From Prevotella sp. (GTDB lineage Bacteria; Bacteroidota; Bacteroidia; Bacteroidales; Bacteroidaceae): a DNA stretch of 58,958 bases. The stretch is from the NCBI GenBank assembly GCA_017415455.1, contig JAFQGS010000049.1, positions 1-58,958 of the forward strand, given 5' to 3'. Within the stretch, counting starts at the first letter, position 1, and each line of letters opens with the position of its first letter. The notes beneath the pieces were generated by a model that made no database searches, was not told the origin of the DNA, and was given only the letters and a program-made list of their open reading frames with translations. A program made the position numbers and the translations under genes. Of this stretch, positions 4,678 to 58,958 are shown one piece after another.

Positions 4678-4946
4678 CGCACGTCACGCCCTCCTCTCTC
4701 CTCAACAGGCATAAATACATACAACTACAGAGCCGCTACAACATGGAAGTAAGCACAATAAAGTAGAAACACGACATAGTGGGAAACCGCACTTGCCTAT
4801 GTCTCGTACAAATCAATAAACGGCAAAAAGAAAAAAGCGGCCACCATACTGGCGGCAAACGACATAGAAACAGGCTTGAGATTTCTGCCAGAAGATTTCA
4901 AGATTTGTATTATCTGGCACCATCATATATGTCATTTCACTTGACA
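4678..4946 (+). other. Non-coding stretch, possible decayed coding remnant
   Basis: No gene is supported here. One plus-strand frame (from about 4779) is open for 54 codons and reads like protein (AATILAANDIETGLRFLPED), but it is preceded by stops and has no start codon. A competing frame gives a short lysine/arginine-rich peptide of poor composition. The stretch could be a gene remnant or the leader of a non-coding RNA from the promoter at 4646. Confidence 0.3.
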
Positions 4947-43004: not shown

Positions 43005-43916
43005 ATGAAACCTACATTATTGTTATTGGCAGCAGGCATGGGTAGCCGTTATGGCGGTTTGAAACAGCTTGACGGACTGGGCCCCAACGGTGAGACAATC
43101 ATGGACTATTCCATCTATGACGCCATAAAAGCCGGCTTCGGAAAGATTGTGTTCATCATAAGAAAAGACTTTGAGGAAGAGTTCCGCACAAAGATACTCA
43201 GCAAATACGAAGGTCACATACCAGCAGAGTTGTGCTTCCAGAGCCTTGATGCGCTGCCAGAAGGATTCACTTGTCCTGCAGAGCGTGTTAAGCCATGGGG
43301 TACCAATCACGCGGTGCTGATGGCAAAGGATATCGTAAAAGAGCCTTTCTGCGTTATCAACTGTGACGACTTCTACAACCGCGACGCATTCATGGTGATG
43401 GGCAAATTCCTTGCAGAACTGCCTGAAGGATGCACCGACACCTACTCTATGGTAGGCTATCGCGTAGGCAACACACTGTCAGAGAACGGCACCGTGGCAC
43501 GCGGCGTATGCTCAAAAGACGAGAACGGCAATCTCACAACTGTTGTTGAGCGCACAGAGATTATGCGCATAGACGGCAAGGTGTCTTACAAGGACGAGCA
43601 AGGAGAATGGGTTGCAATAGAGGACAACACACCTGTGTCAATGAACGTATGGGGCTTCACTCCTGACTACTTTGAGCACAGCGAGGAATATTTCAAGGAG
43701 TTCCTGGCTGATCCTAAGAACATGGAAAACCTCAAGGCTGAGTTTTTCATTCCGCTCATGGTAAACAAGCTTATCAATGAAGGAACATCCACCGTCAAGG
43801 TGTTAGACACCACAAGCAAGTGGTTTGGCGTTACTTATGCCGCCGACCGCGACGGTGTTGTTGAGAGAATCCAGCAACTCATAGATGAGGGTGTTTATCC
43901 AAAGGAATTATTTTAA
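43005..43916 (+). CDS. Sugar nucleotidyltransferase family protein
   Basis: 303 residues. The N-terminal NTP-binding loop LAAGMGSRYGGLKQLDGLGP has a GxGxRxG motif with K16 in place of the usual PK, and a metal-binding INCDDFYN follows. Similar Bacteroidales proteins are often annotated only as nucleotidyltransferase. It is monocistronic with its own promoter. The sugar and nucleotide are not determinable. It is distinct in sequence from the shorter enzyme at 23233. Confidence 0.8.
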   Translation: MKPTLLLLAAGMGSRYGGLKQLDGLGPNGETIMDYSIYDAIKAGFGKIVFIIRKDFEEEFRTKILSKYEGHIPAELCFQSLDALPEGFTCPAERVKPWGTNHAVLMAKDIVKEPFCVINCDDFYNRDAFMVMGKFLAELPEGCTDTYSMVGYRVGNTLSENGTVARGVCSKDENGNLTTVVERTEIMRIDGKVSYKDEQGEWVAIEDNTPVSMNVWGFTPDYFEHSEEYFKEFLADPKNMENLKAEFFIPLMVNKLINEGTSTVKVLDTTSKWFGVTYAADRDGVVERIQQLIDEGVYPKELF

Positions 43917-44034
43917 GTAAGCAGATGCTGCCCCTTACACTCTACTAACGGGACTGCAGCATACAAATAGGTATTATGGGAGTATGCGGGTATTATTTCT
44001 GTCCGCTTCTCCCATTTATTAATACAGAACAAAC

Positions 44035-45060
44035 ATGAACATAGACATTCTGACAAACGAGAAAGCCCAGCAGCTGCGCCAGATAATAGACCAGGCCAAC
44101 GGGATAGTAATCTGTTGCCATCAGAATCCTGACGGAGACGCCATAGGCTCAAGTCTTGGACTTTACGAGTATCTGCGCGACATCGGCAAGAACCCGTTGG
44201 TTATCGTTCCCGATGCCTTCCCCGACTTCCTGCATTGGATGCCTGGCACCGAGCGCATCATACGCTATGACAGGAAGAAGAACCTTGCCGATGAGTATAT
44301 CAGCAATGCCGACCTGATATTCTGCCTCGACTTCAACACGCTTCACCGCACGGGCGACATGGTGCAGGCTCTTACCGACGCCAGGGCCGACAGGGTGCTC
44401 ATCGACCATCATCTTGACCCGTCCATAAATGCTGTGATAGAGATAAGCCATACGGAGGCAAGCAGCACGAGCGAGCTGGTGTTCCGGCTCATCAATCAGC
44501 TGGGGGGCTTTGAGCGCATGACAAAGAAAGGAGCCGTGCCGCTCTATTGCGGAATGATGACAGACACCGGCGGCTTCACCTACAACTCCACCCGCCCAGA
44601 GATATTCCATATCATCAGTCTGATGCTGACAAAGGGCATCAACAAGGACAAGATATACCGCAATGTATATAACAACTACAGCGTGTGGCGTCTGCGCCTC
44701 GTGGGCTATGTGTTGCTTGAGAGGATGACCATCATGAAAGACGGCACTGCCTCATACTTCGTTATCACCAAAGAAGACCTCAAGGCCTTCAGATACAACA
44801 AGGGCGACGCCGAGGGACTTGTCAACATGCCGCTTCAGATTAAGGGCATGAGGCTCAGCATATCACTACGCGAGGACACCGAGAAGGAGAATCTTATATG
44901 GATAAGCCTACGCTCGGTTGACGACTTCCCATGCAACCTGATGGCAGAGAGATACTTCAACGGCGGAGGACATCTGAATGCCGCCGGCGGAAGACTATAC
45001 TGCAGCATCGGTGAGGCGGAGGAGTATGTGAGAAAGGCAATAACAGAGTTTGAATGGTAA
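44035..45060 (+). CDS. DHH-family phosphoesterase (NrnA-like oligoribonuclease / pAp phosphatase)
   Basis: 341 residues. The N-terminal DHH domain has CCHQNPDGDAIGSSLGL, the CLDFNTLHR metal site and the namesake LIDHHLDP. The C-terminal DHHA1 domain ends in GGGHLNAAGGR. NrnA-type enzymes degrade short RNA oligomers and pAp. In Bacteroidetes this gene precedes DUF4827 and glmM, as here. Confidence 0.88.
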   Translation: MNIDILTNEKAQQLRQIIDQANGIVICCHQNPDGDAIGSSLGLYEYLRDIGKNPLVIVPDAFPDFLHWMPGTERIIRYDRKKNLADEYISNADLIFCLDFNTLHRTGDMVQALTDARADRVLIDHHLDPSINAVIEISHTEASSTSELVFRLINQLGGFERMTKKGAVPLYCGMMTDTGGFTYNSTRPEIFHIISLMLTKGINKDKIYRNVYNNYSVWRLRLVGYVLLERMTIMKDGTASYFVITKEDLKAFRYNKGDAEGLVNMPLQIKGMRLSISLREDTEKENLIWISLRSVDDFPCNLMAERYFNGGGHLNAAGGRLYCSIGEAEEYVRKAITEFEW

Positions 45061-45163
45061 AAGCAACACCGCCACAACGGCAAATAACAGCGATAAGGCA
45101 TCTATTCACGTTAAAGTAGCATAATATACGATACCGTATTGATGTTTTTTATCATGTTTTTTG

Positions 45164-45171
45164 TAATTTTG
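45164..45171 (+). promoter_or_regulatory. -7 box upstream of the DUF4827 gene
   Basis: TAATTTTG matches TAnnTTTG. A TTG lies 22 bases upstream. The start codon is 28 bases downstream. Confidence 0.6.
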
Positions 45172-45199
45172 CCACAATATTTAATTATCAAACAAGCAA

Positions 45200-45838
45200 A
45201 TGAGAAAAGCAACATGTTTTTTTATCGCACTCCTCTCACTCTTCATTGCGACATCATGCGATGACACAGAGACCTACGCAGAGCAGAAGGATGAGGAGCG
45301 TAGCGCAATATCACGATTCATCAAGGATTCGGCCATAACAGTAATCAACGAGGCCAAGTTCAAGGAGCAGGGCTATAAGACCGATCTCAGCAAGAACGAG
45401 TATGTGCTGCTGAACAAGAGCGGTGTGTATATGCAGATTGTCCGTGAGGGATGCGGAGAGAAGATAAAGAACGGCGAGACAACAACCGTGCTTTGCCGCT
45501 TCTCGGAGAAGAACATCATGACAGACACCCTGCAGCTTACCAATGACGTATTGCAGTTTGCATCTATCGTCGATAAGATGAGCGTGACAAACAACAGCGG
45601 TACCTTCACCGGCTCGTTCATCTCCGGCGAGAGCATCATGGCTTCGTTCTACGGCAGCACCTCGGTGCCTGGCGGATGGCTCGTGCCGCTGACATACATC
45701 AAGGTGGGACGCCCAGAGAACGACGGAGACGAGATAGCGAAAGTGAAACTCATCGTGCCGCACACACAGGGTCACACATACGCGTCTTCGGGCGTATATC
45801 CATGCTATTATATCATAACATACGAAAGGGGAAGATAA
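45200..45838 (+). CDS. DUF4827 (FKBP-like) lipoprotein
   Basis: 212 residues with a lipoprotein signal ending FIATSC, followed by DDTETYAEQKDEER. The rest is a β-rich domain. The C-terminal part (VPGGWLVPLTYIKVGRP, HTYASSGVYPCYYIITYER) recalls FKBP-type peptidyl-prolyl isomerases. The arrangement one base before glmM is conserved in Bacteroidales and marks the DUF4827 family. Function unknown. Confidence 0.8.
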   Translation: MRKATCFFIALLSLFIATSCDDTETYAEQKDEERSAISRFIKDSAITVINEAKFKEQGYKTDLSKNEYVLLNKSGVYMQIVREGCGEKIKNGETTTVLCRFSEKNIMTDTLQLTNDVLQFASIVDKMSVTNNSGTFTGSFISGESIMASFYGSTSVPGGWLVPLTYIKVGRPENDGDEIAKVKLIVPHTQGHTYASSGVYPCYYIITYERGR

Positions 45839-45839
45839 T

Positions 45840-47225
45840 ATGACACTTATAAAATCTATCTCAGGCATCAGAGGAACCATCGGCGGACATACCGGCGACA
45901 CTCTCAACCCGTTGGACATAGTGAAGTTCACCACAGCATACGCCACATTCATACGCCGCAGCGGTAAGTCTGCAAGCAACAAGATTGTGGTGGGACGCGA
46001 CGCACGCATCTCGGGAGCCATGGTGAACAATGTTGTATGCGGAACGCTCATGGGCGTAGGATACGATGTGGTGAACATCGGACTTGCCACCACTCCTACC
46101 ACAGAGCTAGCGGTGAAGATGGCTGACGCTGCAGGTGGTATCATCATCACAGCAAGCCACAATCCAAGACAGTGGAACGCGCTGAAACTTCTTAACAACG
46201 AGGGAGAGTTCCTTACTGCCGCTGACGGCAAGGAGGTGCTTGACATAGCGGAGAGAGAGGACTTTGAGTATGCCGATGTGGACCACCTCGGACACTATTA
46301 TGAGGACAACAGCTTTGACGACCGTCACATAGAGTCGGTGCTCAACCTGCGCCTTGTTGACACAGAGGCGATACGCAAGGCTGGTTTCAAGGTGTGCGTT
46401 GATGCGGTGAACAGCGTGGGCGGCATCATCCTGCCTAAACTGCTGGAGAAACTGGGCGTAGAGTATAAGGTGCTGTATGGCGAGCCTACGGGCGACTTCG
46501 CACATAACCCGGAGCCTCTTGAGAAAAACCTCAGCGGCATCATGGATGAGATGAAGAAGGGATGCTACGACCTGGGTATCGTTGTTGACCCAGACGTAGA
46601 CCGTCTTGCCTTCATCAGCGAAGACGGCACCATGTTTGGCGAGGAGTACACACTGGTGTCTGTGGCTGACTACGTGCTCAGCAACACACCTGGAAACACA
46701 GTCAGCAACCTCAGTTCCACACGTGCCTTGCGCGATGTCACAGAGAAGCACTCGGGTGTTTACTCGGCGGCGGCTGTCGGCGAGGTGAACGTCACAACAA
46801 AGATGAAGGAGGTGAACGCTGTGATTGGCGGCGAGGGCAACGGCGGCGTCATCTATCCAGAGAGCCATTACGGTCGCGACGCGCTGGTGGGCATTGCTCT
46901 CTTCCTGTCGTCACTGGCTCACAAGGGATGCAAGGTGAGCGAGCTGAGAGCATCGTTCCCAGAGTATTTCATCGCCAAGAACCGTATAGACCTGACACCA
47001 TCTACTGACGTGAAGGCCATTCTCAACAAGGTGAAGGAGCTTTACAAGGATGAGCAGATAAACGATATCGACGGTGTGAAGATTGACTTTGCCGACAAGT
47101 GGGTGCATCTGCGTGCGTCTAACACCGAGCCTATCATACGCGTTTATAGCGAGGCTGCTACCATGGAGGAGGCGGACAAACTGGGAAAGACTCTCATGCA
47201 GGTGGTGTACGACATGCAGGGATAA
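45840..47225 (+). CDS. glmM: Phosphoglucosamine mutase
   Basis: A 461-residue α-D-phosphohexomutase that converts glucosamine-6-P to glucosamine-1-P for peptidoglycan and LPS precursors. The phosphoserine loop is TASHNP with S106. The metal loop is DPDVDRLAF, the sugar-recognition loop GGEGNGGVIYPE, and the phosphate-binding loop RASNTEPIIRVYSEA. The phylum's standard partners DHH and DUF4827 precede it. Confidence 0.92.
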   Translation: MTLIKSISGIRGTIGGHTGDTLNPLDIVKFTTAYATFIRRSGKSASNKIVVGRDARISGAMVNNVVCGTLMGVGYDVVNIGLATTPTTELAVKMADAAGGIIITASHNPRQWNALKLLNNEGEFLTAADGKEVLDIAEREDFEYADVDHLGHYYEDNSFDDRHIESVLNLRLVDTEAIRKAGFKVCVDAVNSVGGIILPKLLEKLGVEYKVLYGEPTGDFAHNPEPLEKNLSGIMDEMKKGCYDLGIVVDPDVDRLAFISEDGTMFGEEYTLVSVADYVLSNTPGNTVSNLSSTRALRDVTEKHSGVYSAAAVGEVNVTTKMKEVNAVIGGEGNGGVIYPESHYGRDALVGIALFLSSLAHKGCKVSELRASFPEYFIAKNRIDLTPSTDVKAILNKVKELYKDEQINDIDGVKIDFADKWVHLRASNTEPIIRVYSEAATMEEADKLGKTLMQVVYDMQG

Positions 47226-47279
47226 CAGATATCACACGATATTTTCATAACTCCAGACTGAACAGGAGTGGAAAAAATT

Positions 47280-47317
47280 CAGGCTTGCAATATTCATTAT
47301 TGTGAGCCTGTTTTTTT
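47280..47317 (+). terminator. Intrinsic terminator after glmM
   Basis: CAGGCT and AGCCTG bracket an extended stem (with G-T pairs) around a short loop, followed by TTTTTTT. Confidence 0.8.
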
Positions 47318-47394
47318 ATATTTACAGCATAAAACAACGGCTTTAATACCACAAAAACGCTAAAAAACCGTCATTTCATATCTTTCGCCGCGTC

Positions 47395-47745
47395 ATTTCT
47401 ATTCCATGACGCCATCATGGCTACGTCATGATGCTCTGTTTGATGCCCGAACAGGCTGCGTTTGATGCCCTTTCAGAGCATCGTTTCTACGGGATGACGG
47501 CGCCATATGGTATAAATCACGGCATCAGGCAGGCCATGCCGCTTCATGATTACTATGCCATCATGCGGCGATGGCATATAAGTGACGGGGAAATACAAGT
47601 TCCGCGAGTCGCCGATTTCATGAAAAGGCGTCTGAAAAATCCGCCATTTCGCTGCATTAAGGCATCATTCATATTTGTTAACATGCAGAAAATGCAAATC
47701 CCTTATGCGCCCTTTTATGCGAAAGGACATCAAACGCACCGCCTT
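47395..47745. repeat. 22-nt periodic array (block F, about 16 units)
   Basis: The register holds from 47395 to about 47745. Two adjacent units at 47439 and 47461 begin TTTGATGCCC (inverted form of GGGCATCAAA). The unit at 47549 (ATTACTATGCCATCAT) matches block A. The units at 47659 (AAGGCATCATT) and 47725 (GGACATCAAACG) lie 66 bases apart in the same register. This block joins the two sequence types of the family. A 118-codon plus-strand frame crosses it but has array composition and is not called. Confidence 0.7.
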
Positions 47746-47794
47746 TTTTTCTATTTTGAGAGTTGCGTTTGTCAAAAAAAGTGACATTTTTAGG

Positions 47795-48004
47795 GGCCTC
47801 ACCCCCAACCCCTCTCCTTGGAGAGGGGAGTAGGTTGACGAGTTGAGTGATTAAGTGAAAAGTGAAAAGAAGATAGAGGGAGGTAGAGGAAGATAAAAGG
47901 AAATAGAGGACGTATGCGTGTCAAGCTATTGTCTGAACTCCTGACGTGTTGTTGAGCGAAAGCGAAAAACTCCTGAACTCCTTGGGTAAAGTTGACAAGG
48001 TTGA
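47795..48004 (+). repeat. Left arm of an inverted repeat bracketing 48-58 kb
   Basis: The segment starting GGCCTCACCCCCAACCCCTC is almost identical to the reverse complement of 58780-58958. It carries a short internal hairpin CCCCTCTCC/GGAGAGGGG. This arm has an extra 32 bases near 47944 relative to the other. The shared part includes GAGTTGAGTGATTAAGTGAA and the purine-rich AGATAGAGGGAGGTAGAGGA. Confidence 0.85.
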
Positions 48005-48102
48005 TGAGGAAGCAGAAATGATAGAAATCTATATTGACATAAATGATAGTTTTCACCATGGGACATCATGTATTACATTTAATAGATAGACATGTCCACG
48101 TC

Positions 48103-48585
48103 TCAGAACAACGAGACGAGCCACTGTCCGAGATATATCAACAAGAACACCATCCCCACTATTACACCCACAAGCAGTAGCATAACAATAGCCGAAAGCC
48201 ATGCCTTGCGGTTTACCGTGCGTATTATCTTCTTGTCGCCCTCAACAAATCCTTCTATAAGAGTCATGTTCTGCTGATATGAGTTATGGAAGATGTCAAG
48301 AATGTTTCCCACGTAGAACGGAATCATTCCTATGATGATGTCGCGCAGAGTATTGTTGATGATGGCAAGGGTAAGAGGCAGGGAGCGCAGACAGAAGATG
48401 CAGAAGAGAATATATACGACGGAGACCACGGCTGACAATATGTCCCCAAGGCCACCGGGAATGGCGAAGCCAAGAACGGCATCGATATAATACTTGTCCA
48501 TATATGTTGACAGTTTGCGCAGTAGTGCGTATATGCTGCTTTCTCTGAGCTTATCCTGTAATATTGCTCTCTTCTCCTCTTTCAT
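48103..48585 (-). CDS. DUF4112 family membrane protein
   Basis: 160 residues. A short helical N-terminus is followed by YYIDAVLGFAIPGGLGDILS and membrane segments (about 45-70, 80-105 and 130-155), the pattern of DUF4112. Function unknown. It is the last gene of the operon that starts with DUF2723, 48 bases after its neighbour. Confidence 0.8.
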   Translation of the reverse strand: MKEEKRAILQDKLRESSIYALLRKLSTYMDKYYIDAVLGFAIPGGLGDILSAVVSVVYILFCIFCLRSLPLTLAIINNTLRDIIIGMIPFYVGNILDIFHNSYQQNMTLIEGFVEGDKKIIRTVNRKAWLSAIVMLLLVGVIVGMVFLLIYLGQWLVSLF

Positions 48586-48633
48586 CGTTGATAGGAATTG
48601 TTGTTTGTTGTATTGTTCCGGTCATCGCTATGA

Positions 48634-49143
48634 CTAACCTCTCTTATCTGTTCTCAACTCTCTTGCCGCAGCATAAGCCTTGTTCATGATATCGGCCGTG
48701 AGCTCCACAGCCATGGCATGCTCCATAACCCCAAGCGCCTCACATCTTGTGAACATACTGTCGTGCTCCTCCTGAGTGGCAAGATGCCCGGCAAGAAGGA
48801 ACTCAAAGTTACGCTTATATTCTTCCACCATGCAGTTGTAGAAGGCATCTGTCTTGCAGGCCAGACGCACCAGGTCCATATATGTGGTGGCAGGCGTGAT
48901 GAATGTCTTCAGCTTCTGCTGCAGATGGTCCATGTCATAGTTCATACGTGCGAAAATATAGAACGCCTCTTTGTTGAACACCGCCGACACATCCTCGTAG
49001 TGCTCAAGCATCATGCGCTTGATGTCTCTCGGTTCAAGTGTATCCATGCCGCCCTTGTCCTGCTCAACAATGCCGAGGGTGAAATAGCGGAAGAACGTTT
49101 TTACTATCATCGCAACCACCCTGTCAGTCCTTATTGTCTCCAT
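48634..49143 (-). CDS. Conserved-looking helical protein of unknown function
   Basis: 169 residues, predicted mainly α-helical and soluble, with no recognised domain. Notable stretches are MIVKTFFRYFTLGIVEQDKG and VFNKEAFYIFARMNYDMDHL. Its start overlaps the queG end by 20 bases, so it is likely co-translated with queG. No motif permits a functional call. Confidence 0.6.
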   Translation of the reverse strand: METIRTDRVVAMIVKTFFRYFTLGIVEQDKGGMDTLEPRDIKRMMLEHYEDVSAVFNKEAFYIFARMNYDMDHLQQKLKTFITPATTYMDLVRLACKTDAFYNCMVEEYKRNFEFLLAGHLATQEEHDSMFTRCEALGVMEHAMAVELTADIMNKAYAAARELRTDKRG

Positions 49144-50248
49144 TATTGTTTTCCTTATTTGTTAATACAGCACTTATGTTTCTCATCAGTCCCTCATACT
49201 TGGCTCTCTTAACAGCACTACCCTTGAAGAGAGCACGGTATTGGTCTGTCGTAAGATGTCTCCACTTCTCTTCCGTCATGCCAAGCAGATGGTCGGACGG
49301 CAGAAACTCCGCTACCGTAGTGGGCTGCGCCTGCCTGTTCCAAGGGCAATGGCGCTGACATTCGTCGCATCCATAAATACACCTGCCGAGTTTCGCCGCC
49401 ACGTCTGCATCAATATCGCCGCGGTTCTCTATCGTCTGATAGGATATGCATCTGTGTGAGTCGAAGGAAGTGGTGTCTGACGTCTCCTGCCATATTGCCG
49501 CTGTAGGACAGTTGTCTATACAGGCATGACAGTTGCCGCACATATTATCGTGAGGGTTGTCGTATTCAAGCTCCGCATCTACCATAAGTTCACCGAGAAA
49601 GACCATGCTTCCTGCCTTACGCGTAACCAACTGATGGCTCTTTCCTATCCAGCCAATGCCGGAACGCTCCGCCCAGTATCGCTCAAGAACTGGTGCTGTG
49701 TCACAGAATGCCCTGTAGGTTACTGGCGCTGTGTCACATAACACGCTATCGGTTTCTGGTGCTGCGCTATTGCAAGCACTATTGCCCTTTAATGCTGTGT
49801 CACGGCAAGCGCAGCCCTCCCGACAGACATTCTCGTTATTATCCGCCGCCGTTGTCTCTTCTTTATTATATCTATAAGGAACAAGTCCCAGCCTTTCGGC
49901 AAGCTGATGAAGCCTCTCACGCATCACGTCGTGATAGTCTTTGCCAAGGGCATATACGGATATCTGTGGTTCCTCCTCGGGCATTCTCTTCACCGGAACA
50001 TAGCTTAACGCCACACAGATAATGCTTTTGGCACCTTCCATCAGCAGCGTGGGATTGAGCCGCTTGTCCATGTTATTAGCGAGATAAGCCATTGAGGCAT
50101 GCCTGTTCCTGCCTATCCAGTCCATATAGGCGGCTGCCGTCACCGCGTCAACAGGCTCCGCCTTTGCTATGCCACAAGCAATAAAGCCGAGGTTTGCAGC
50201 CTCGGCTTTTATCTTATCACTCGAAAGTCTTGAACTCATATCCCTCAT
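49124..50248 (-). CDS. queG: Epoxyqueuosine reductase QueG with a low-complexity insertion
   Basis: 374 residues. QueG uses cobalamin and two [4Fe-4S] clusters to reduce epoxyqueuosine to queuosine in tRNA. Cluster cysteines are seen at C237, C240, C243, C247 and in GRCIYGCDECQRHCPWN (C290-C301). The substrate region VLERYWAERSGIGWIGKS is normal. Between about 131 and 182 there is an unusual insert rich in Thr, Ala, Asn and Cys, ending in two near-copies of the CDTAPV motif. Its start overlaps the deacetylase gene by 32 bases; a start at M4 is also possible. Confidence 0.88.
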   Translation of the reverse strand: MRDMSSRLSSDKIKAEAANLGFIACGIAKAEPVDAVTAAAYMDWIGRNRHASMAYLANNMDKRLNPTLLMEGAKSIICVALSYVPVKRMPEEEPQISVYALGKDYHDVMRERLHQLAERLGLVPYRYNKEETTAADNNENVCREGCACRDTALKGNSACNSAAPETDSVLCDTAPVTYRAFCDTAPVLERYWAERSGIGWIGKSHQLVTRKAGSMVFLGELMVDAELEYDNPHDNMCGNCHACIDNCPTAAIWQETSDTTSFDSHRCISYQTIENRGDIDADVAAKLGRCIYGCDECQRHCPWNRQAQPTTVAEFLPSDHLLGMTEEKWRHLTTDQYRALFKGSAVKRAKYEGLMRNISAVLTNKENNNGDNKD

Positions 50249-50828
50249 TCTTCAGCCACTCCAACACCTCGGGCAATGCCTTTTTAAGCTTGTCGATGCT
50301 CTTCAGCGAGTCATGGAATGTTATTATTGAACCGTTGCGGGCATATCTCTTGACTGTTCTCACAACATCTTCGGACGTCGTCCACTTGCTGTAATCACGC
50401 GTAAGCAGGTCCCACATCACTATTCTGTATTTCCTTCCAAGCCAGAAATACTGCTGCCAGAGCATCCATCCATGCGGAGGTCTGAAGAGATTACTCTTTA
50501 TAAGCTCGTTTGCCTGCTCCACATTGGCATTGTATTTCAGCGTAGCATGCCTGAATCCGCCCCAATGGTTAAAGGTATGATTACCAACCCGATGACCGTC
50601 CTCCTTTATTCTGTTATACAGATCATGATATCTCAGGACGTTCTCTCCTACCATGAAGAACGTTGCCTTGGCATCATACTTGGCGAGAGTCTCAAGAATA
50701 AACGGTGTTGACTCCGGTATCGGACCGTCGTCAAAGGTCAGATAAACGGCCTTCTCGTTCTTATCCATTCGCCATGTGGCTCTTGGATACAGCCATTTCA
50801 TCCATATCGCCGGTTGTTCTATTATCAT
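50217..50828 (-). CDS. Polysaccharide deacetylase (NodB homology domain)
   Basis: 203 residues of the carbohydrate esterase 4 fold. Motif 1 is YLTFDDGPIPE, motif 2 is HRVGNHTFNHW, and later RPPHGW and the C-terminal ITFHDS with a histidine complete the metal and catalytic sites. It would remove acetyl groups from peptidoglycan or another N-acetylated glycan. No signal peptide is evident (an N-terminal MIIEQPAIWMKWLYPRA segment may anchor it). It is 48 bases from the DUF2723 gene and overlaps queG. Confidence 0.85.
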   Translation of the reverse strand: MIIEQPAIWMKWLYPRATWRMDKNEKAVYLTFDDGPIPESTPFILETLAKYDAKATFFMVGENVLRYHDLYNRIKEDGHRVGNHTFNHWGGFRHATLKYNANVEQANELIKSNLFRPPHGWMLWQQYFWLGRKYRIVMWDLLTRDYSKWTTSEDVVRTVKRYARNGSIITFHDSLKSIDKLKKALPEVLEWLKNEGYEFKTFE

Positions 50829-50876
50829 CAGCCTGATATTTATTTTACTCTCTTATTGCGTTATCTCTGCAAGCTG

Positions 50877-53800
50877 TTATCTGTACTCTGGCATCTGTCC
50901 GCCCTTAGCCATATACACTTCCATGATGCGTGAGTATTCTCTCAGCATATTATCATAGTATGCAGCATCACCGATAGACTCGGCAATTCTCACACAAGAG
51001 TCGATATAATATATCTTCTCCCAGCAATCCTGCTGCGACATAGCGAATCTGCTTGGGCTGAGTGAGTTATACCAGTTCATATAGTCACACTCGTTCTTGA
51101 AGACTGCGCTGAGTATTCGCTTCGCATTAGCCTGGTCGCCAAGTGCCGCATAGCCACGTGCGAGATCTGCCGCTCCACTTACGAATGTCAATGGAACATT
51201 ATATGCCGGTATTGCTTTCTCCGCATACGCAAGAGCCTTTTTCGCCATGTCTTCCTTACCTTCAGTCAACAAGTTCAGAACCAGCTGGCCGAAGAGTCTT
51301 CTGTGAGTATAGCACATGCGCATTGCCGTCTCGTCAAGATATATTCCCTTCTGGCTGATGTTTCCGTATTTATAACGGTTCATCATATTGTCGTATGTCT
51401 TGTCCGAGTCAAAGCCCTTTGCGCCAGGCAGCGTTGTCGTGAACGGAGAGAAACGCTTCACCAGACCTTCCTGTATGCAATTCTCATCCAGGTTCATATA
51501 GTTGTCTGGTCCCACGGTGTATGCAACATATATAGGTCTTGTCCAGTTGCATTGTGCCAGCATCTCAAGAATCATCATGTCGCCCTTGTAGAGAATGCTC
51601 TTTCCGCCGAGCGAGATAACCATCTTGTCAGGGATACTGTCGGATGCCATCATCATACCGCTCTTCTTTACCGCCTCCTTGTCTATTGTAAGATAAAGAG
51701 TGTCGGTCGGTATGTAATGCAGGTTCTTGTCCTTGTTCCTGATCCAGTATTTAATGATGTTCTTCAGCTCAAAAGGCTCGTCACCAAACTCCGCCTTTGC
51801 CGCCTCCGGATTATTAGCATACTGCTCAAGTACCAGCTGCTTCATCTCCGGTCTCACCTCTATATAGTCGTTTGTTCCCGAACAGTAGTCAAGGCGCGGC
51901 CATGTGATTGGCACAGACGGCGAGTCGTATGCCGGGCGGCGCATCTGGTCGATATACCAGTCTGTCTGCAGATATGACAAGTTGCACACGCGCACATCAG
52001 TACGCACTCCCTCCACCTCCTGGTTATACCACAATGGGAAGGTGTCGTTGTCTCCGTTGGTATATATGATAGGATTTCCCTGGTCTGGCAGAGACATCAG
52101 ATAGTTCTGACCGAAGTCGCGGCATACGTATCTTCCGCTGCGGTCATGGTCATCCCATGTCTGACTTGCCATCTGCACCGGCACAAATATTGCGGCTATG
52201 GCAACAGCCAAGGCTATTCCTGTCTCCGCATTCTTGCTCAGCGCAAAGCTCTTGTCCTTCTTCGCCATTACTCCTCTCACGCCTTTCTTTATAAGGTCAA
52301 TGATGGCAGCCACACCCATACCGCACCATATAGCAAACGCATAGAACGAGCCGGCATAAGCATAGTCGCGCTCACGTGGCTGTCCTGGTGTCTGGTTCAG
52401 ATATACCACAATGGCAAGACCTGTCATGAAGAAGAGGAAGAACACCACCCAGAACTGACGTATTCCTCTCTGTCCTCTGTAAGCCTGCCAGAACAGTCCG
52501 ATAAGACCCAGCAGCAGCGGCAGACAATAGAACACGTTATGTCCCTTGTTTGTCTTCAGCAGCTCAGGCAGCTTGCTCTGATCGCCAAGACGCCAGTTGT
52601 CAAAGAACGGGATACCCGTAATCCAGTTGCCATGCTCCAACTCGCCGTGACCCTGCACATCGTTCTGTCTTCCGGCAAAGTTCCACATAAAGTAACGCCA
52701 GTACATGAAATTACACTGGTAAGAGAGGAAGAACTGGATGTTCTCCAGCTGTGTAGGCATCTTCACCGGAACCACCTCGCCACATCTGTTATACAATTCC
52801 TCACGGCCCTTCACGCCTCCCATCCAGCTCTCATAGGAAGCGGCATGGTCGCTTGAGTGCATACGCGGGAAGAGCATATTCTGAGCATACTCATAACTGC
52901 GCTTATACTGCACTATGAAGTAAGAGTCTTTCTCGTCCTTGCTTGCCTTCTCTTTCTGCTGGTACACAGGTGCGCCCTCCTTCATCTTCGGTCTGCAGTA
53001 TTGTCCGTCCTCCACATATTTCACCTGCGAGGTGTATGCCTGTCCATAGAGCAACGGCCTGTCGCCATACTGCTCACGGCTGAGATATGAGCCGAGGGTG
53101 AAGATATCCTCCGGAGAGTTCTGGTCCATCGGGGTATTAGCCGACGAGCGGATAACCGTGATGGCATACGTAGAATATCCAATCATAAGCATCAGCAGGC
53201 AGAGCAACGTGGTGTTCATAGCACGTGCCGTAACAATGAATTTCTTGTCTTTCTTTATTTTCAGGACAAAGCAGAGTGCCGCAAGAACAACCAATCCTAT
53301 CATCCATGACATAAAGCCATGTCCGTAGAATGGTATTCCGAGCATTGCCACAGAAGCTACGAAAGAGGCATTGCAGCGCTTGCGGCTCTTGTTTGTATAA
53401 CTCTCATATATAGCCCATGCCACGATGCAAACCAGCATGAAGATATACACGATAAGACCTGTGTTGAACGGCATGCCGAGCTGGTTCACGAACAACAGCT
53501 CAAACCATCCGCCTACGGTAACGATGCCCGGCACCAAACCATAGAGGATTACCGCCACTATCACAAACGACACAAGCAGCGCGAGCAACGAGCCCTTGAG
53601 GTCGGCATTTGGGAACTTGCGGTAGTAATAAACCAACACGATGGCAGGCACGCACAGAAGGTTCAGCAGATGCACACCAATACTGAGTCCTGTCATATAC
53701 ATGATAAGCACGAGCCACCTGTCGCTATGCGGCTTGTCGGCATTGTCCTCCCACTTCAGGATAAGCCAGAACACCACGGCTGTGAAGGCTGACGAATAGG

Positions 53801-54242
53801 CATATACCTCTCCTTCCACCGCACTATACCAGAAGGTGTCGCTGAAGGTATATATCAGCGCTCCCACCAGTCCGCTCGCCTCTATGGCGATGAGCTTTCC
53901 AATACTTAGGTCTGCCCAGTCTTTTAATATCAGCTTACGTGTGAGGTGCGTGATACTCCAGAAGAGGAAGAGGATACACGTTGCGCTCAGCAGGGCGCTC
54001 ATGATATTCACCATATACGCCACCTGCGTTGGGTCGCTGGCAAACTGCGAGAAGATGTTCGCAGTAAGCATAAAGAAAGGTGCGCCAGGCGGATGTCCTA
54101 TCTCAAGTTTATAACCTGCAAGGATAAACTCAGGACAGTCCCAGAAGCTGGCTGTCGGCTCTACGGTACTGCAATACACTACGGCAGCGACAAGGAACGC
54201 CGCCCAGCCAAGTATATTGTCTACCAATCTAAACTGTTTCAT
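50877..54242 (-). CDS. DUF2723 membrane protein (TMEM260-like predicted glycosyltransferase)
   Basis: About 1,121 residues. The N-terminus MKQFRLVDNILGWAAFLVAA and TASFWDCPEFILAGYKLEIGHPPGAP-like motif (DCPE, GHPPGA) are the signature of the DUF2723/GT117 family, whose members are predicted polyprenyl-linked O-mannosyltransferases. Many transmembrane helices fill the first two-thirds; the rest is soluble. A frame-open ATG exists at 54278, but it lies upstream of the predicted transcription start, so 54242 is preferred. It heads the operon running to 48103. Confidence 0.85.
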   Translation of the reverse strand: MKQFRLVDNILGWAAFLVAAVVYCSTVEPTASFWDCPEFILAGYKLEIGHPPGAPFFMLTANIFSQFASDPTQVAYMVNIMSALLSATCILFLFWSITHLTRKLILKDWADLSIGKLIAIEASGLVGALIYTFSDTFWYSAVEGEVYAYSSAFTAVVFWLILKWEDNADKPHSDRWLVLIMYMTGLSIGVHLLNLLCVPAIVLVYYYRKFPNADLKGSLLALLVSFVIVAVILYGLVPGIVTVGGWFELLFVNQLGMPFNTGLIVYIFMLVCIVAWAIYESYTNKSRKRCNASFVASVAMLGIPFYGHGFMSWMIGLVVLAALCFVLKIKKDKKFIVTARAMNTTLLCLLMLMIGYSTYAITVIRSSANTPMDQNSPEDIFTLGSYLSREQYGDRPLLYGQAYTSQVKYVEDGQYCRPKMKEGAPVYQQKEKASKDEKDSYFIVQYKRSYEYAQNMLFPRMHSSDHAASYESWMGGVKGREELYNRCGEVVPVKMPTQLENIQFFLSYQCNFMYWRYFMWNFAGRQNDVQGHGELEHGNWITGIPFFDNWRLGDQSKLPELLKTNKGHNVFYCLPLLLGLIGLFWQAYRGQRGIRQFWVVFFLFFMTGLAIVVYLNQTPGQPRERDYAYAGSFYAFAIWCGMGVAAIIDLIKKGVRGVMAKKDKSFALSKNAETGIALAVAIAAIFVPVQMASQTWDDHDRSGRYVCRDFGQNYLMSLPDQGNPIIYTNGDNDTFPLWYNQEVEGVRTDVRVCNLSYLQTDWYIDQMRRPAYDSPSVPITWPRLDYCSGTNDYIEVRPEMKQLVLEQYANNPEAAKAEFGDEPFELKNIIKYWIRNKDKNLHYIPTDTLYLTIDKEAVKKSGMMMASDSIPDKMVISLGGKSILYKGDMMILEMLAQCNWTRPIYVAYTVGPDNYMNLDENCIQEGLVKRFSPFTTTLPGAKGFDSDKTYDNMMNRYKYGNISQKGIYLDETAMRMCYTHRRLFGQLVLNLLTEGKEDMAKKALAYAEKAIPAYNVPLTFVSGAADLARGYAALGDQANAKRILSAVFKNECDYMNWYNSLSPSRFAMSQQDCWEKIYYIDSCVRIAESIGDAAYYDNMLREYSRIMEVYMAKGGQMPEYR

Positions 54243-54279
54243 TATATATTTCTTTTTTATTATTTCCGAAATAATCATG

Positions 54280-54287
54280 CAAATATA
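54280..54287 (-). promoter_or_regulatory. -7 box of the DUF2723 operon
   Basis: TATATTTG on the minus strand matches TAnnTTTG, 37 bases before the start codon at 54242. It rules out the ATG at 54278. Confidence 0.6.
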
Positions 54288-54559
54288 CGAAGAAACAAAC
54301 TATAATAAGGTTATTTATTATATTTTAACGTGAATGGGAGGCATTTCATTCGTAAAGACAGCATCCCTGTTTCTGTCCAAAAGACAACTCCGCATGCCCC
54401 TCAAAGGTTAAATAACAACATTAAAACAAGAGAGGAGCATTCGGATTACCTACTAACACCTCTCTATACATGGGAAAGAACCCCTCATTTTTTCTCTCCA
54501 ATAAAGAGAACGGATGACAATCTGTTCAAGTAGGGCATCCACCCTAATTGAGCTTATGA
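54288..54559. other. Intergenic stretch downstream of the DGR template repeat
   Basis: No supported gene. It lies between the DGR template repeat and the DUF2723 promoter. A short plus-strand open frame here is unlikely to be coding. Confidence 0.4.
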
Positions 54560-54678
54560 GGGGAGACACACCACCCGGAATCCGTAGTTGTTGTTGCGGT
54601 TCGACGGAGTATTGTTGTTGCGATTAGAGACACGGCAGTTACCAGCATTGTTGTTCCAGCTACCGCCACGCAGCACCC
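54560..54678 (-). repeat. DGR template repeat (TR)
   Basis: 119 bases, nearly identical to the variable repeat 56226-56344. In the coding sense it reads GGGTGCTGCGTGGCGGTAGC and continues through runs of AAC and AAT codons to a GC-rich 3' end (GGTGGTGTGTCTCCCC). Of 11 differences from the variable repeat, 10 are adenines in this copy (8 A-to-G, 2 A-to-C). The first 19 bases overlap the end of the reverse transcriptase gene and contain its TAG stop. The repeat supplies the RNA template for mutagenic cDNA. Confidence 0.95.
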
Positions 54679-55697
54679 TCCAAACGACTATCACCCTCTA
54701 TTGTTGAGCAAATACTATTACACAAACAATATGTATTTGCCTTTCGTGCAAATGCTATCAGCGAATTTACTTGATGTAAATATCTTTCCTGACTCCATAC
54801 CCCATCAGCTAACAGCTGACCATAAGATATCATTTTATTTTTAAACCGCAACTTACTTCTGCGATTAAGTAAGATATTATCTTTATTAATAAAATATCCC
54901 AAGAAAGAAACTCCCTGCTCTGTCTTTACTATCTGCGGAGTCTTTAGCTTTAATCGCAATACATTTTCCACAAAATCAGTCACTGACGAAACATATTCTT
55001 TGACTTTCTCTCTATCATTATCGTATAACAACTTATCATCCATGTATCTTACGTATATAGGTACAAGCAAGACCTCTTTAATATAATGATCTAAGGGCGA
55101 CAGGTACAAATTCATAAAATACTGGCTTGGCAGATTACCTATAGGGATCCCACATCCTGGAGTCACTTCATATGAATCTATAATTCTATCAAACAACTGC
55201 AATAAACGCTGATCCTTAAAAATTCTACGTAGCAGCCCTTTCAACACTTCATGGGAAACAGAATCAAAGCATTTCCGCACATCTAACTTCGCCACATAAG
55301 CATATCTCGCCATTCCCAAGCGTGCTCTGTCTATTGCAGCATATACACCTTTGCCGCTGCGAGATGCATAAGAATCAAAAATAAGATTACTTTCAAATCT
55401 GGGCTTGCAGACATTCATTATCGCATGATGCATTACACGCTCTGGAAATGATGCTGCACATATAAGCCTTTCTTTGGGATCGTATATCTTAAAATAATGA
55501 TAATTGCCTATTTCCACAGTTCCAGTCCTAAGGCCATCTCTTATCTTCAGAATATTATCATAAAGATTTTCCGAGAATTTAATTACTTCTTTCTTTCCTG
55601 TTTTTCCACGACGAGCCTGATGATAAGCCAACAAGATGTTATCTATGCTCTCTATCTGAGACATTAGGTTACCCTTGCGTTTCATCCCTCTGTTCAT
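54660..55697 (-). CDS. Reverse transcriptase of a diversity-generating retroelement
   Basis: A 345-residue RT with fingers and palm domains and no endonuclease or maturase domain, as expected for DGRs. The catalytic box is YMDD (Y218-D221) in [10 protein letters not shown]. The DGR-specific motif is [11 protein letters not shown] with SQ at 191-192, where group II intron RTs have QG. The upstream segments [16 protein letters not shown] and GCGIPIGNL fit. The C-terminus (GAAWR) is encoded by the first bases of the template repeat. The start may be at M1 or M12 (MSQIESIDN at 55664, 5 bases after the accessory gene). It is error-prone at template adenines by family knowledge. Confidence 0.95.
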
Positions 55698-56133
55698 TAA
55701 ACATTTCGCACAGAATTTTACCGTACTTCTCCATTCGCTTCTCTCCTATCCCAGATATTCGTGCTACAAGTGTCGCATCTACATTCCCCATTTTTGCAAT
55801 CTGCGCCAATTCCGCATCAGTAAACACGGCATATGCCGGGACTGCATCATCAGCCGCCAACTTCTTCCTTATTGCACGTAGCTTGGCAAAACGTTCAAAA
55901 TCTTGCGGTGACAATAACTCTCTATAATCCACCTTCTCACGCCGATCCTGCTGACCAGATACAACCGTAGCTGGCAGATACGTCACGGCTATAGACCAAT
56001 GTCCAACATTTCCAGACGACACATAAAATTGTCTATCTATGTCAAGAACCTTATGCCCTCTTAGAAACTTATTCAGTTCTTCCTGTTGCTGTTCACTACC
56101 TCTTGAGGACAGATCGAATATTTTAATCTGCAT
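55669..56133 (-). CDS. HRDC-domain accessory protein of the DGR
   Basis: 154 residues. The N-terminal ~75 residues are not recognised. The C-terminus (about 78-148) is an HRDC fold, with LSPQDFERFAKLRAIRKKLA, VPAYAVFTDAELAQIAKM and ARISGIGEKRMEKYG, as in RecQ helicases and RNase D. HRDC proteins occur as alternatives to Avd in some DGRs, where they probably hold the RT with its RNA template. It lies between target and RT, overlapping the RT start by up to 29 bases. No Avd homologue is present. Confidence 0.88.
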   Translation of the reverse strand: MQIKIFDLSSRGSEQQQEELNKFLRGHKVLDIDRQFYVSSGNVGHWSIAVTYLPATVVSGQQDRREKVDYRELLSPQDFERFAKLRAIRKKLAADDAVPAYAVFTDAELAQIAKMGNVDATLVARISGIGEKRMEKYGKILCEMFNEQRDETQG

Positions 56134-56167
56134 GCTCCATTTCCCTTTCGCCCCATTTCCTCGCTTC

Positions 56168-56190
56168 GCAGGATTAGTCCCTTATCCTGC
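56168..56190. other. Hairpin downstream of the variable repeat
   Basis: GCAGGAT and ATCCTGC form a perfect 7-bp stem around a nine-base loop, 36 bases downstream (in the gene sense) of the variable repeat. Comparable hairpins beyond the initiation-of-mutagenic-homology site assist homing in the BPP-1 phage DGR. Its role here is inferred. Confidence 0.5.
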
Positions 56191-56222
56191 TCATACTCAT
56201 AAATGGGATTGTTCTACTTTTC

Positions 56223-57590
56223 TTAGGGGAGACACACCACCCGGAATCCGTAGCTGCTGCCGCGGTCCGACGGAGTATCGTTGGCGCGATTAGAGACACG
56301 GCAGTTACCAGCATTGCGGTTCCAGCTCCCGCCACGCAGCACCCGGTATTGACCAGAGCCGGCACCTGTTGGATTGCTCTGCTCGCTGTAGGAATAACTG
56401 CCATACCAGTCGCTGCACCATTCCCACACATTGCCGCTCATGTCATAAATACCGAGTTCGTTGGCTCTCTTCTGTTTCACCCAATGGGTTGCACTGCCGC
56501 TGTTGGAATCATACCATGCCACGGCATCTATTGCATAACTGCCGCTGTATTTATATCCCCTGCTCTTATTACCGCCACGGGCCGCATACTCCCACTGCGC
56601 CTCCGTCGGCAACAGATAGGTCTTGCCCGTCATGGCGCTCAGCTCACGACAGAAGGCTTGCGCCTCTTCCCAATTAACATAATACATCGGGTTGTTATCA
56701 CCAACGCCACGCATAGACTGAGCATTAGCCTTATCACGCTGCTGATATATGGTGGTTCCCATTATCTTCTCCCATTGCGCCTGCGTCACCTCGCATTCCG
56801 CAATATAATACGAGTCAAGCCGTACTGTGTGTACCGGGCTTTCATCACTATCCGCATCGCTGCCCTGCTCTGGTGTCGCTCCCATACGGAAGGAGCCGCC
56901 CTCCACATATACCATCTTCATGTTCAATCCGCAGCCCGCATCCTCAACATAACTCTGCGGAGTCTGCGAATACGTCGGCTGCTGGTATGACGGTTGCTGA
57001 TAAGTCTGCTGTTGCTGCTGGTAAGGCTGCTGATAAGATGGCTGCTGATATGTCTGTTGCGACATCTGCCTGTTCACCTTTACACCCAGCAATTCGCCCA
57101 CCATGCGGTCAATGGCTGCCATCACGGAAGACTGGTCCGCGTCTGCCTCAGCAAAAACTGTATTCACCCTCTCGCCTGGGTCTATTCTATACTTTTCGAC
57201 ATCTATTAAAATCTTAATACCTGGAACACCTGCCACTACCTTCTTATTTATCGACACTTTCGGGAACAATATATAGTCGGCATTTGCCTTCTTCACCATC
57301 TTACATATATTCTCAAATGTATCCGACTTGCCGCTGTTTTGCAACTGACGCTTTATGTCATTCATATTAACCTCAAAGACCTCATAGCCATCTGATGCTG
57401 TACACGCGTCAACAATGCTCTGGCGTATCATCTTCTTTAATCCATCATCCAAAGGAGGATAGTTATTATCCTTAATATCAGCCACAATAACCTTCTGAGT
57501 TGCAAAGATTCTGAAGCCTTGAGCCACGGCTACACTCGGTAACAGCACAGCCATACCGAGCAAAAGAAAGAATAGTTTTGTTCTTGTCAT
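56223..57590 (-). CDS. DGR target protein: SUMF1/FGE (C-type-lectin fold) with C-terminal variable repeat
   Basis: 455 residues. A signal peptide (1-24) is followed by an N-terminal αβ domain (about 25-165, FATQKVIVADIKDNNYPPLD), a Gln/Tyr-rich linker (about 168-208, repeats of QQPSYQQ and QQTYQQ), and a SUMF1/formylglycine-generating-type domain (about 215-455, MVYVEGGSFRMGATPEQGSD, SGNVWEWCSDWYG). Residues 416-455, including RVLRGGSW, are the variable repeat. Seven codons differ from the template as N425R, N436A, N438D, N442D, N444G, N445S and N446S. The fold displays variable side chains on a stable scaffold. No lipobox is seen; anchoring may be through the N-terminal domain or its partner. 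Confidence 0.93.
   Translation of the reverse strand: MTRTKLFFLLLGMAVLLPSVAVAQGFRIFATQKVIVADIKDNNYPPLDDGLKKMIRQSIVDACTASDGYEVFEVNMNDIKRQLQNSGKSDTFENICKMVKKANADYILFPKVSINKKVVAGVPGIKILIDVEKYRIDPGERVNTVFAEADADQSSVMAAIDRMVGELLGVKVNRQMSQQTYQQPSYQQPYQQQQQTYQQPSYQQPTYSQTPQSYVEDAGCGLNMKMVYVEGGSFRMGATPEQGSDADSDESPVHTVRLDSYYIAECEVTQAQWEKIMGTTIYQQRDKANAQSMRGVGDNNPMYYVNWEEAQAFCRELSAMTGKTYLLPTEAQWEYAARGGNKSRGYKYSGSYAIDAVAWYDSNSGSATHWVKQKRANELGIYDMSGNVWEWCSDWYGSYSYSEQSNPTGAGSGQYRVLRGGSWNRNAGNCRVSNRANDTPSDRGSSYGFRVVCLP
56226..56344 (-). repeat. DGR variable repeat (VR)
   Basis: 119 bases ending one base before the stop codon of the target gene. It aligns without gaps to 54560-54678. Differences fall at 10 template adenines plus one T/G difference that is silent here (GGT to GGG, Gly421). 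The 3' end (gene sense) is GC-rich and identical in both copies for the last 40 bases or so, as expected of the site where cDNA priming begins. Confidence 0.95.
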
Positions 57591-57607
57591 TTTTCAATCA
57601 AATTTAT

Positions 57608-58081
57608 TTAAATAGCTCCCACAAGTTTACAACACAGGCTGTTGCATGCCGGGCGCAGATAGTCTATATCGGCATAGGCACGAACCGACGACGATGCTAC
57701 AATCTTACCCGAAGAGGTGTTCACGATGCGTGCGCTGAGCAGCACAGTCCTCTTGTCCAATGGTGTTATCTCTGTAACGAGGATATAGTCCATCAGCTGC
57801 TTCTTCACGTAAGTGAGAGTGCCGGATGAGATATTTCCCGTCTTGTCGAAATTCATTTCAAGAGACACGAAACTTATCTTGTCATATCCCTCATAGCCGT
57901 CAGAATTGGTTATGGCATCGGTAAGCGCGCTGCGCAGGAACACCTTTGTGCCATTGGCAACATCACCGCTGCGGTCCACCACCTCGGTAATAGCCACCTT
58001 CTTACGGTTATAGAACTGTGCTGACATTGTAGAGCATGACAGGAATGTGAAAACCAAAGCAAATAAATAAACTTTAACCAT
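57608..58081 (-). CDS. Secreted protein sharing the N-terminal domain of the DGR target
   Basis: 157 residues beginning MVKVYLFALVFTFLSCSTMS, with a cleavable signal peptide whose likely cut is after TMSA (an internal FLSC is a poor lipobox). The mature part begins FYNRKKVAITEVVDRSGDV and resembles the N-terminal domain of the target protein, including a shared SDGYE segment, but it lacks the linker and SUMF1 domain. It is 17 bases upstream of the target gene and probably its partner. An ATG at 58129 is open but gives a poor leader, so 58081 is chosen. Confidence 0.75.
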   Translation of the reverse strand: MVKVYLFALVFTFLSCSTMSAQFYNRKKVAITEVVDRSGDVANGTKVFLRSALTDAITNSDGYEGYDKISFVSLEMNFDKTGNISSGTLTYVKKQLMDYILVTEITPLDKRTVLLSARIVNTSSGKIVASSSVRAYADIDYLRPACNSLCCKLVGAI

Positions 58082-58144
58082 ACTGTTATAAATAATTTGT
58101 CGCCTATGGACTCCCCAAAGATTCGGCATATTAATTAAACAGGT

Positions 58145-58187
58145 ATTAAAAAAGACGTGGGAGTCTGTACTAACTTATCCCAAGTCT
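58145..58187 (-). terminator. Terminator-like hairpin in the leader of the DGR operon
   Basis: On the minus strand AAGACTTGGGA and TCCCACGTCTT pair (one mismatch) and are followed by TTTTTT. It lies between the promoter at 58485 and the first gene, so it could end a short RNA or attenuate the operon. Confidence 0.6.
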
Positions 58188-58478
58188 TCAGGCTTCTCGC
58201 ATTGCCCACACTCAAAGGATAAGCAACACATTAAGCCCACGCCGTGACATATTATAAGAGCCATCGCAATACGGAAGACGCATTGACAACGGGATATAAT
58301 ACACCCAACGCAGACGTTGCGATTGCCATATCTTTATGAGTGTTGTCAAACTTTGCGAGAATTTGAAGACTCAAAGATAACGTATCGTAAACGTCCTTCC
58401 GAGACGTGCCGCCAGAAGCAGCATACGCCTCTATTCCATCGATGTCTTGACACCCCTGACCGCAAGGACAGGTTTTGT
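58188..58478 (-). other. Leader RNA or decayed coding remnant upstream of the DGR operon
   Basis: The minus strand downstream of the promoter has no start codon suited to a gene. One frame is open for over 70 codons (DKTCPCGQGCQDIDG, then DVYDTLSLSLQILAKFDNT) up to a TAA near 58253, with protein-like composition but no ATG. It could be a gene remnant, a leader or a small RNA of about 320 nt ending at the hairpin at 58145. I do not recognise a family. Confidence 0.35.
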
Positions 58479-58484
58479 CGTTGG

Positions 58485-58515
58485 CAAAATTAAATAATAT
58501 TTTGGAATTATCAAA
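58485..58515 (-). promoter_or_regulatory. Promoter of the DGR operon
   Basis: On the minus strand TTTG (58515-58512) and TAATTTTG (58492-58485) are 19 bases apart, a full -33/-7 match. It would start transcription near 58478, about 400 bases before the first gene. Confidence 0.7.
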
Positions 58516-58575
58516 TAAATTTATGTAAATTATGTGGTTTGGGGAGGTAAACCATTTTTTTTGAAGTTGATGAGG

Positions 58576-58958
58576 GGCCTCACCCCCAACTCAAAAACTC
58601 ATTAACTTGTTAACTTATTAAAGGAGTGTAGGAGTACAGGAGTGACTTCTCACTCCTAATTATGAATTCGGAATTATGAATTATGAAGAAATGACGCTTC
58701 GCTTAGGAGTTCAGGAGTATACTTTTTAGGAGTGTAGGAGTATAGGAGTGCAGGAGTGCAGACAATAGTCCTGCTACAATCAACTTGTCAACTTTACCCA
58801 AGGAGTTCAGGAGTTCAGACAATAGCTTGACACGCATACGTCCTCTATCTCCTTTTATCTTCCTCTACCTCCCTCTATCTTCTTTTCACTTTTCACTTAA
58901 TCACTCAACTCGTCAACATACTCCCCTCTCATTATGGAGAGGGGTTGGGGGTGAGGCC
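58576..58958. repeat. MITE-like element with 15-bp terminal inverted repeats
   Basis: GGCCTCACCCCCAAC at 58576-58590 and its reverse complement at 58944-58958 bound a non-coding 383-bp segment. Inside are 8-bp AGGAGTNY tandem repeats (58622-58646 and 58704-58764). The right half (58780-58958) is the inverted copy of 47795-48004. No transposase is present; the right end coincides with the window edge, so the boundary may be artificial. Confidence 0.65.

Follow-up and report, generated by a model that had tools for sequence, protein, structure and literature searches.

Several described diversity-generating retroelements (DGRs) are close to the one reported here. The DGR of BPP-1 (mtd, avd, brt) combines a template repeat (TR), a variable repeat (VR), an error-prone reverse transcriptase (RT) and a structured spacer RNA in which an internal adenine serves as the primer (PMC12875486). 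In Treponema denticola, an HRDC accessory gene overlaps the RT gene (PMC4891356). Structural group 3 of the DiGReF survey holds DGRs whose TR runs into the annotated RT gene at its 5' or 3' end (PMC3521204), and the cellular DGRs with C-lectin-fold targets of a global survey are also among the closest known systems. The element analyzed here shares these features with the system named, its priming adenine being a predicted one. It lies on the minus strand of contig JAFQGS010000049.1 of Prevotella sp. (assembly GCA_017415455.1), the whole of whose 58,958 nucleotides is called the window. Because HRDC accessories, lectin-fold targets and TR/RT overlap have all been published, it is hardly in doubt that the element is one more cellular DGR of an already known type. 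The main finding concerns a relation between two of its parts: in relatives of this DGR, the DNA behind the VR mirrors the spacer RNA up to a predicted priming adenosine.

The element occupies positions 54425-58129, all features being on the minus strand, in the order partner protein, target with C-terminal VR, HRDC accessory, RT and TR. A first-pass annotation, made from the letters alone, had named these parts in this order and called them intact, and Pfam together with the TR/VR comparison bears this out, with every DGR open reading frame intact in translation. It had placed the element at 54560..58129; the location stands, while the extent was slightly short because a conserved RNA carries the element on to about 54425. 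The RT (345 aa, 54660..55697) is of the DGR type. It matches Pfam RVT_1 (6e-16) and phrog_1423 (3.1e-98), and its best solved relative by sequence is 8ub7 (1.9e-40, next best 5.3e-14), an entry titled 'Reverse transcriptase' that we take to be the BPP-1 DGR enzyme. The SQ motif (GNLPSQ) and YMDD, both noticed in the first reading, are present in its translation. An antiviral RT (DRT) or retron identity was rejected, as no family matched above its curated cut-off (Drt3a 49.1 bits against 200, retron St85 39.5 against 235). PADLOC without cut-offs returned a general RT model (2.8e-40) and RT_UG26 (7.1e-23), both weaker than phrog_1423; a PADLOC defence system was also rejected, since it gave RT families only, plus DpdF for the HRDC part. 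The target (455 aa, 56223..57590) has a C-terminal FGE/C-type-lectin-fold domain, with a match to Pfam FGE-sulfatase of 8.3e-53 and, as best solved relative by sequence, T. denticola variable protein 1 (TvpA, 2y3c, 1.5e-37). The VR reads as the C-terminal end of this lectin-fold protein. The N-terminus of the target is hydrophobic in translation, from which the protein is probably secreted or surface-bound; its family suggests that it binds ligands that change, probably at the cell surface. An FGE paralogue on contig C100 was rejected as a second target, being 41% identical with an end unlike the VR.

The TR (54553..54678, with its 3' boundary taken from relatives) and the VR (56222..56344, ending at a G taken as the flank boundary, which was set by hand from relatives) carry a record of adenine mutagenesis. 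Over a 120-nt core they differ at 11 positions, 10 of which fall on the 28 template adenines (hypergeometric P 1e-6), and 7 of the 12 AAY codons are altered. The eleventh difference, T54662 in the TR opposite a G, leaves the amino acid of the target unchanged (GGT/GGG). With T54662 the RT stop codon TAG begins; the RT gene therefore reaches 19 nt into the TR and shares with it these first 19 nt, stop codon included. Two further non-adenine differences stand at the 3' edge. Across 12 loci, the window and 11 relatives, 222 changes were counted at template adenines (102 to G, 80 to T and 40 to C); non-adenine differences number three in the window (one in the core, two at the 3' edge), two in L013, one in L012 and none in the other nine. 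The window element is almost certainly a DGR with mutagenic retrohoming in its history.

Directly behind the TR lies a conserved spacer RNA (Sp, 54425..54552), predicted to form a priming stem, a GGAT-loop hairpin and a terminal stem. Twenty loci share an AGCTCA motif or a variant of it, the GGAT-loop hairpin (most loci), a GAAC-like block, and a terminal stem that encloses RGTAG and CGAA and is followed in many loci by a T run; in the window this stem (54429..54465) surrounds AGTAGG and CGAA and precedes a T-rich stretch. The terminal stem is supported by covariation. RNAalifold returned 13 column pairs, all in this stem and 12 of them with double changes, and in a 16-pair structure the paired share of cells was 89.6%, compared with 58.0% for shuffles and no more than 52.4% for slid versions, with a covariation score of 0.845 against 0.260. 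In 16 of the 20 loci, the window among them, the stem's own arms gave better pairing than all 19 foreign arms. For the priming stem, AG-C-NNN can pair with N'N'N'-A-C; here 90% of cells are paired, where shuffles give 83.2% and slid versions no more than 38.8%, and of its four pairs three have double changes (1, 4 and 1 rows). The candidate priming A and the C that follows it are identical in all 20 rows; in the window this is the A of GAAC, predicted at 54525 from this identity and from the flank relation of the relatives.

A model, R1, was built from the 20 rows, whose starts had been located by an AGC pattern in the spacer alignment. The window spacer scores 88.7 bits with R1, being itself a training row. 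At E 0.001, R1 has matches at 22 places, spread over 18 of 393 genomes. Fifteen of these places are training rows; the other seven all adjoin at least one DGR piece, in five cases RT sequence, and RT-positive and RNA-positive genomes coincide in 15. Rfam gave no match at E 1 or better within 53300-58958, and no published description of this spacer consensus was found in the literature looked through; the RNA is already known in kind, because a structured spacer is known in BPP-1. R1 was rejected as a universal DGR RNA, since with filters off it gave no BPP-1 match; other filters-off E values were 0.0015 for L030, 0.018 for L132 and 0.6-1.3 for L133, L131 and L134. L030 (IMGVR_UViG_3300031933_000125) is a DGR on a viral contig with no HRDC gene detected, which carries RGTAGG...CGAA between TR and RT (22.5 bits). 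In L067 (genome G119, contig C180) the spacer RNA stands by a target-like or TR-like stretch with no RT found in 1.2 kb upstream, for which a solitary TR and a decayed DGR are candidate readings. In L080, at a contig edge, such a stretch alone stands beside the RNA. In L073 (G227) and L078 (G119) the RNA is next to an RT split over two frames; as sequenced, both read as decayed DGRs whose RNA is still recognizable. As a marker, this conserved RNA would help to recognize DGRs of the HRDC class.

In the relatives, the DNA right after the VR approximates a reverse-complemented spacer, over the stretch that begins with the spacer's first base and ends at the A of GAAC (GGAC in L012). This was tested on 20 of the 23 HRDC-class loci (L050, L052 and L083 omitted) with 1000 shuffles each, the flank start being fixed at the VR end and TR and VR ends being set by hand. 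Seventeen of the 20 loci were equalled by 10 or fewer of 1000 shuffles, 15 of them by none; the loci are not independent, because L045/L047 and L016/L017 are close pairs. The own flank beat every foreign flank in 14 loci, one foreign flank equalled it in the window, L045, L047 and L056, and 12 did so in L051 and L054. When all 23 loci were compared, with the boundaries of L017, L054, L056 and L083 reset by hand, the VR flank outscored all other windows of its own locus in 14 and in none of five comparators. The match is retained next to the candidate priming A: the first eight flank bases there agree at 8/8 positions in L051, 7/8 in L054 and 8/8 in L056, and the flanks of L051 and L054 lack the hairpin part. 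In L106 the same first bases recur at a second VR. L107 (G127, contig C5, reverse-complement positions 4793 and 5822) has, at a further place after the TR, the TR end and spacer start once more in direct orientation and partly diverged (direct score 73), which looks like a duplication of TR and spacer. The idea that a stem-loop behind the VR is a conserved feature of the class was rejected, the energies being mostly unremarkable against shuffles.

BPP-1 was used as a control. Its VR departs from the TR at position 120, and its sequence from 118 on, TGACCACCT, is exactly complementary to a spacer stretch that ends at nucleotide 56. A scan over all spacer positions also picks this match (9/9, 0 of 200 shuffles). 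A56 is presumably the mapped BPP-1 primer, with cDNA starting at TR G117. The initiation of mutagenic homing site of BPP-1 (IMH) and its counterpart IMH* differ at five bases (PMC4891356); the first three of these differences restore VR complementarity to the BPP-1 spacer, and the last two restore it only around a one-base bulge.

A number of results weigh against the spacer and flank readings. For the BPP-1 scan the VR start had been set near the TR/VR divergence after the match was already seen; with the annotated repeat end, another stretch is best, and 4 of 786 other windows equal it. L051 and L054 fail the anchored test at full length (272 and 180 of 1000). The window's own flank (56194..56221), at the place where relatives carry the spacer reverse complement, has diverged: it is marginal in the anchored test (21/1000, third weakest of 20), and no copy was detected in it by two less constrained tests. 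Within the RNA, arm swapping of the GGAT hairpin is weak (own mean 10.0, foreign 6.5, 95th percentile 13), 8 of 20 rows break the innermost pair of the priming stem, whose count of pair types is not above shuffles, and the C that the stem places opposite the A is invariant by construction, because the AGC start was fixed by the search pattern. Among other DGRs, 12 of 15 show no flank relation in the spacer-position scan, on which ground the rule was rejected as universal; the remaining three are L025 (3/200), L014 (9/200) and L021 (15/200).

The explanation that fits the whole best, and which we hold to be very probable, is a chromosomal HRDC-accessory DGR that diversifies the lectin-fold end of its target. 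By analogy with BPP-1, the TR-spacer RNA would be bound by RT and accessory, with HRDC, a domain of RecQ helicases, taking the place of Avd; it would prime itself at a spacer A, its copying would be error-prone at A, and the resulting cDNA would replace the VR. The relatives and BPP-1 point to A54525 as the priming A, and priming at this nucleotide is reasonably probable. The spacer RNA up to the priming A would stay on the 5' end of the cDNA and would pair with its complement, stored in the sense strand right behind the VR, so that the cDNA would be anchored at the VR and not at the TR. As the VR antisense strand reads spacer RNA to the priming A and then cDNA, such a chimera could anneal by both its RNA and its DNA parts, which would select VR over TR and set the 3' joining point. 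Anchoring by the RNA primer has, in our judgment, about an even chance of being right. An Okazaki-fragment-like intermediate, earlier proposed for the RNA-cDNA hybrid (PMC12875486), fits this anchoring. The HRDC protein may have the role suggested for it in T. denticola (PMC4891356), opening the target DNA or holding it. More generally, it may be, with the balance for and against about equal, that in the HRDC class and in BPP-1 the VR 3' target site (IMH in BPP-1) is the stored complement of the DGR's own RNA primer. If true, this rule would make the priming nucleotide of uncharacterized DGRs predictable from genome sequence and would give a reason for the one-way transfer from TR to VR; it can be checked at once on large DGR collections and in a reconstituted E. 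coli system, and it may already be noted in the literature.

The flank relation could also reflect protein recognition, with RT or HRDC binding a shared hairpin in the RNA and, inverted, in the DNA behind the VR. The copied stretch includes the GGAT hairpin in many loci, and efficient homing of BPP-1 requires a stem-loop behind the VR whose structure matters more than the sequence of its stem (PMC3240598). Against this, the bases by the priming A match in L051, L054 and L056, where the hairpin is lost, foreign flanks do not match the own flank in 14 of 20 loci, and the BPP-1 match consists of nine plain bases ahead of the stem-loop; protein recognition is rather doubtful. A further view takes the flank copy as a trace and not a guide, left when the RNA primer was occasionally copied into DNA with the cDNA and overwrote the flank. 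This would agree with a VR antisense strand that reads spacer RNA then cDNA from the TR/spacer boundary in most loci, but the copies diverge from their spacers, often near the GGAT loop, and in L051 and L054 have no hairpin, a state not to be expected after regular overwriting; we consider this view unlikely.

Whatever the role of the flank, the window element may be decaying, formerly active in its lineage and no longer retrohoming in this strain. The share of changed adenines (10/31) is the lowest of the 12 loci, which speaks against current activity. The non-adenine core difference, a VR end that is shorter (CCCCTAAG, where the TR has CCCCTCATAAG), the weak flank match and the presence of broken DGRs in relatives all point the same way. 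On the other side, open reading frames and RT motifs are retained, the spacer RNA scores well with R1, though as a training row, and low adenine change also fits recent acquisition or selection on the target. Decay is a real possibility that falls somewhat short of even, and whether the DGR is currently active in this strain, as the first-pass annotation inferred, we regard as a balanced question. Finally, the DGR might be cargo of an unseen prophage past the contig edge, given that only 829 nt are known on the partner side, where the contig ends upstream of the partner gene, and that the element is sporadic in its genus. The first-pass annotation had called it cellular, and this holds on one side: Pfam found no phage structural or integrase family in the 40 neighboring open reading frames scanned, a set that lacks a few others such as 50217-50828; the flank beyond the partner gene was not found. 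The TR-spacer end directly adjoins a conserved chromosomal gene, DUF2723, and RTs from phage records are distant (all 157 matches below 60% identical, at most 38% among the 40 matches listed); phage cargo is highly improbable.

Relatives G006 and G009 share a gene order of VTT, DUF2723, deacetylase and onward, and against both of them a block of the window at about 43.0-54.3 kb (43005-54278) is inverted. The DGR stands at the outer end of this inverted block of ~11 kb. The gap between VTT and DUF2723 is 105 to 860 nt, with no DGR between, in four of five relatives; the fifth shows no VTT there. AGGAGT-rich repeats lie near the contig end (58622-58825) and may be why the assembly stops. Contig C50, considered as a continuation through the genes that follow in a relative, did not prove to be one. 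In the draft genome (135 contigs, 91% complete) neither a second RT nor a remote VR was found; the one remote-VR candidate, a match of just 22 bases on contig C81 (E 0.297), was rejected.

The two smaller proteins complete the cassette. The accessory protein (154 aa, 55669..56133) carries HRDC (Pfam 5.7e-13), preceded by a conserved N-terminal part of ~70 aa in which N21, F23 and W46 are invariant in 24 sequences; its HRDC part matches DpdF C-termini in PADLOC. The partner protein (173 aa, 57608..58129) is weakly similar to the N-terminal domain of the target (26% identity to residues 26-119, E 9.4e-5), and its sole Pfam match, FlgO (0.0018), is under the curated cut-off. A start at 58081, ahead of a hydrophobic stretch, is likelier than one at 58129. 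No partner homologue was found at E 1e-6 in the other 119 of the 120 genus genomes searched.

Related RTs, at a threshold of E 1e-60, are present in 16 of the order's 393 genomes and, sporadically, in 5 of 398 in the genus, the own genome being counted in both. A tree of 43 RTs was computed without an outgroup of other RT kinds, with L132 dropped as too short and L023, L057 and L058 left out. In it, 26 HRDC-labelled rows and L021 form one starred clade (27 rows, 100/98), and two Planctomycetota RTs with HRDC lie outside it; L021 is labelled non-HRDC, yet has a weak HRDC match (4.2e-5). The window RT groups with L016 and L017, from two Bacteroidales metagenome-assembled genomes, at a support of 86/87 that is not starred, and the four other RTs of its genus form a separate starred clade with L056. 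This split between clades suggests, from the RT sequences, that the DGRs of the genus were acquired separately. In L016 (807-2315) and L017 (3002-4114) the RT frame continues across the whole TR in the frame of the target, so the RT could bear the unmutated variable end of the target as its own tail.

Set beside the known systems, the window DGR is related to that of T. denticola through its target, whose best solved relative is variable protein 1 of that species. The two differ in layout. T. denticola has the accessory gene between TR and RT, belongs to structural group 1a and has remote targets (PMC4891356), whereas the TR of the window comes after the RT gene, whose stop codon it overlaps, and the draft genome yielded no remote VR. 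The DiGReF survey offers no comparison of the accessory, as the word HRDC does not occur in its main text (PMC3521204). BPP-1 differs in several respects: its accessory Avd is not an HRDC protein, its TR lies upstream of the RT, its target is a phage tail protein, its RT is 33% identical to that of the window, and R1 misses its spacer. Different as they are in these respects, BPP-1 and most of the window's relatives tested have in common a VR flank complementary to the spacer, in BPP-1 up to nucleotide 56.

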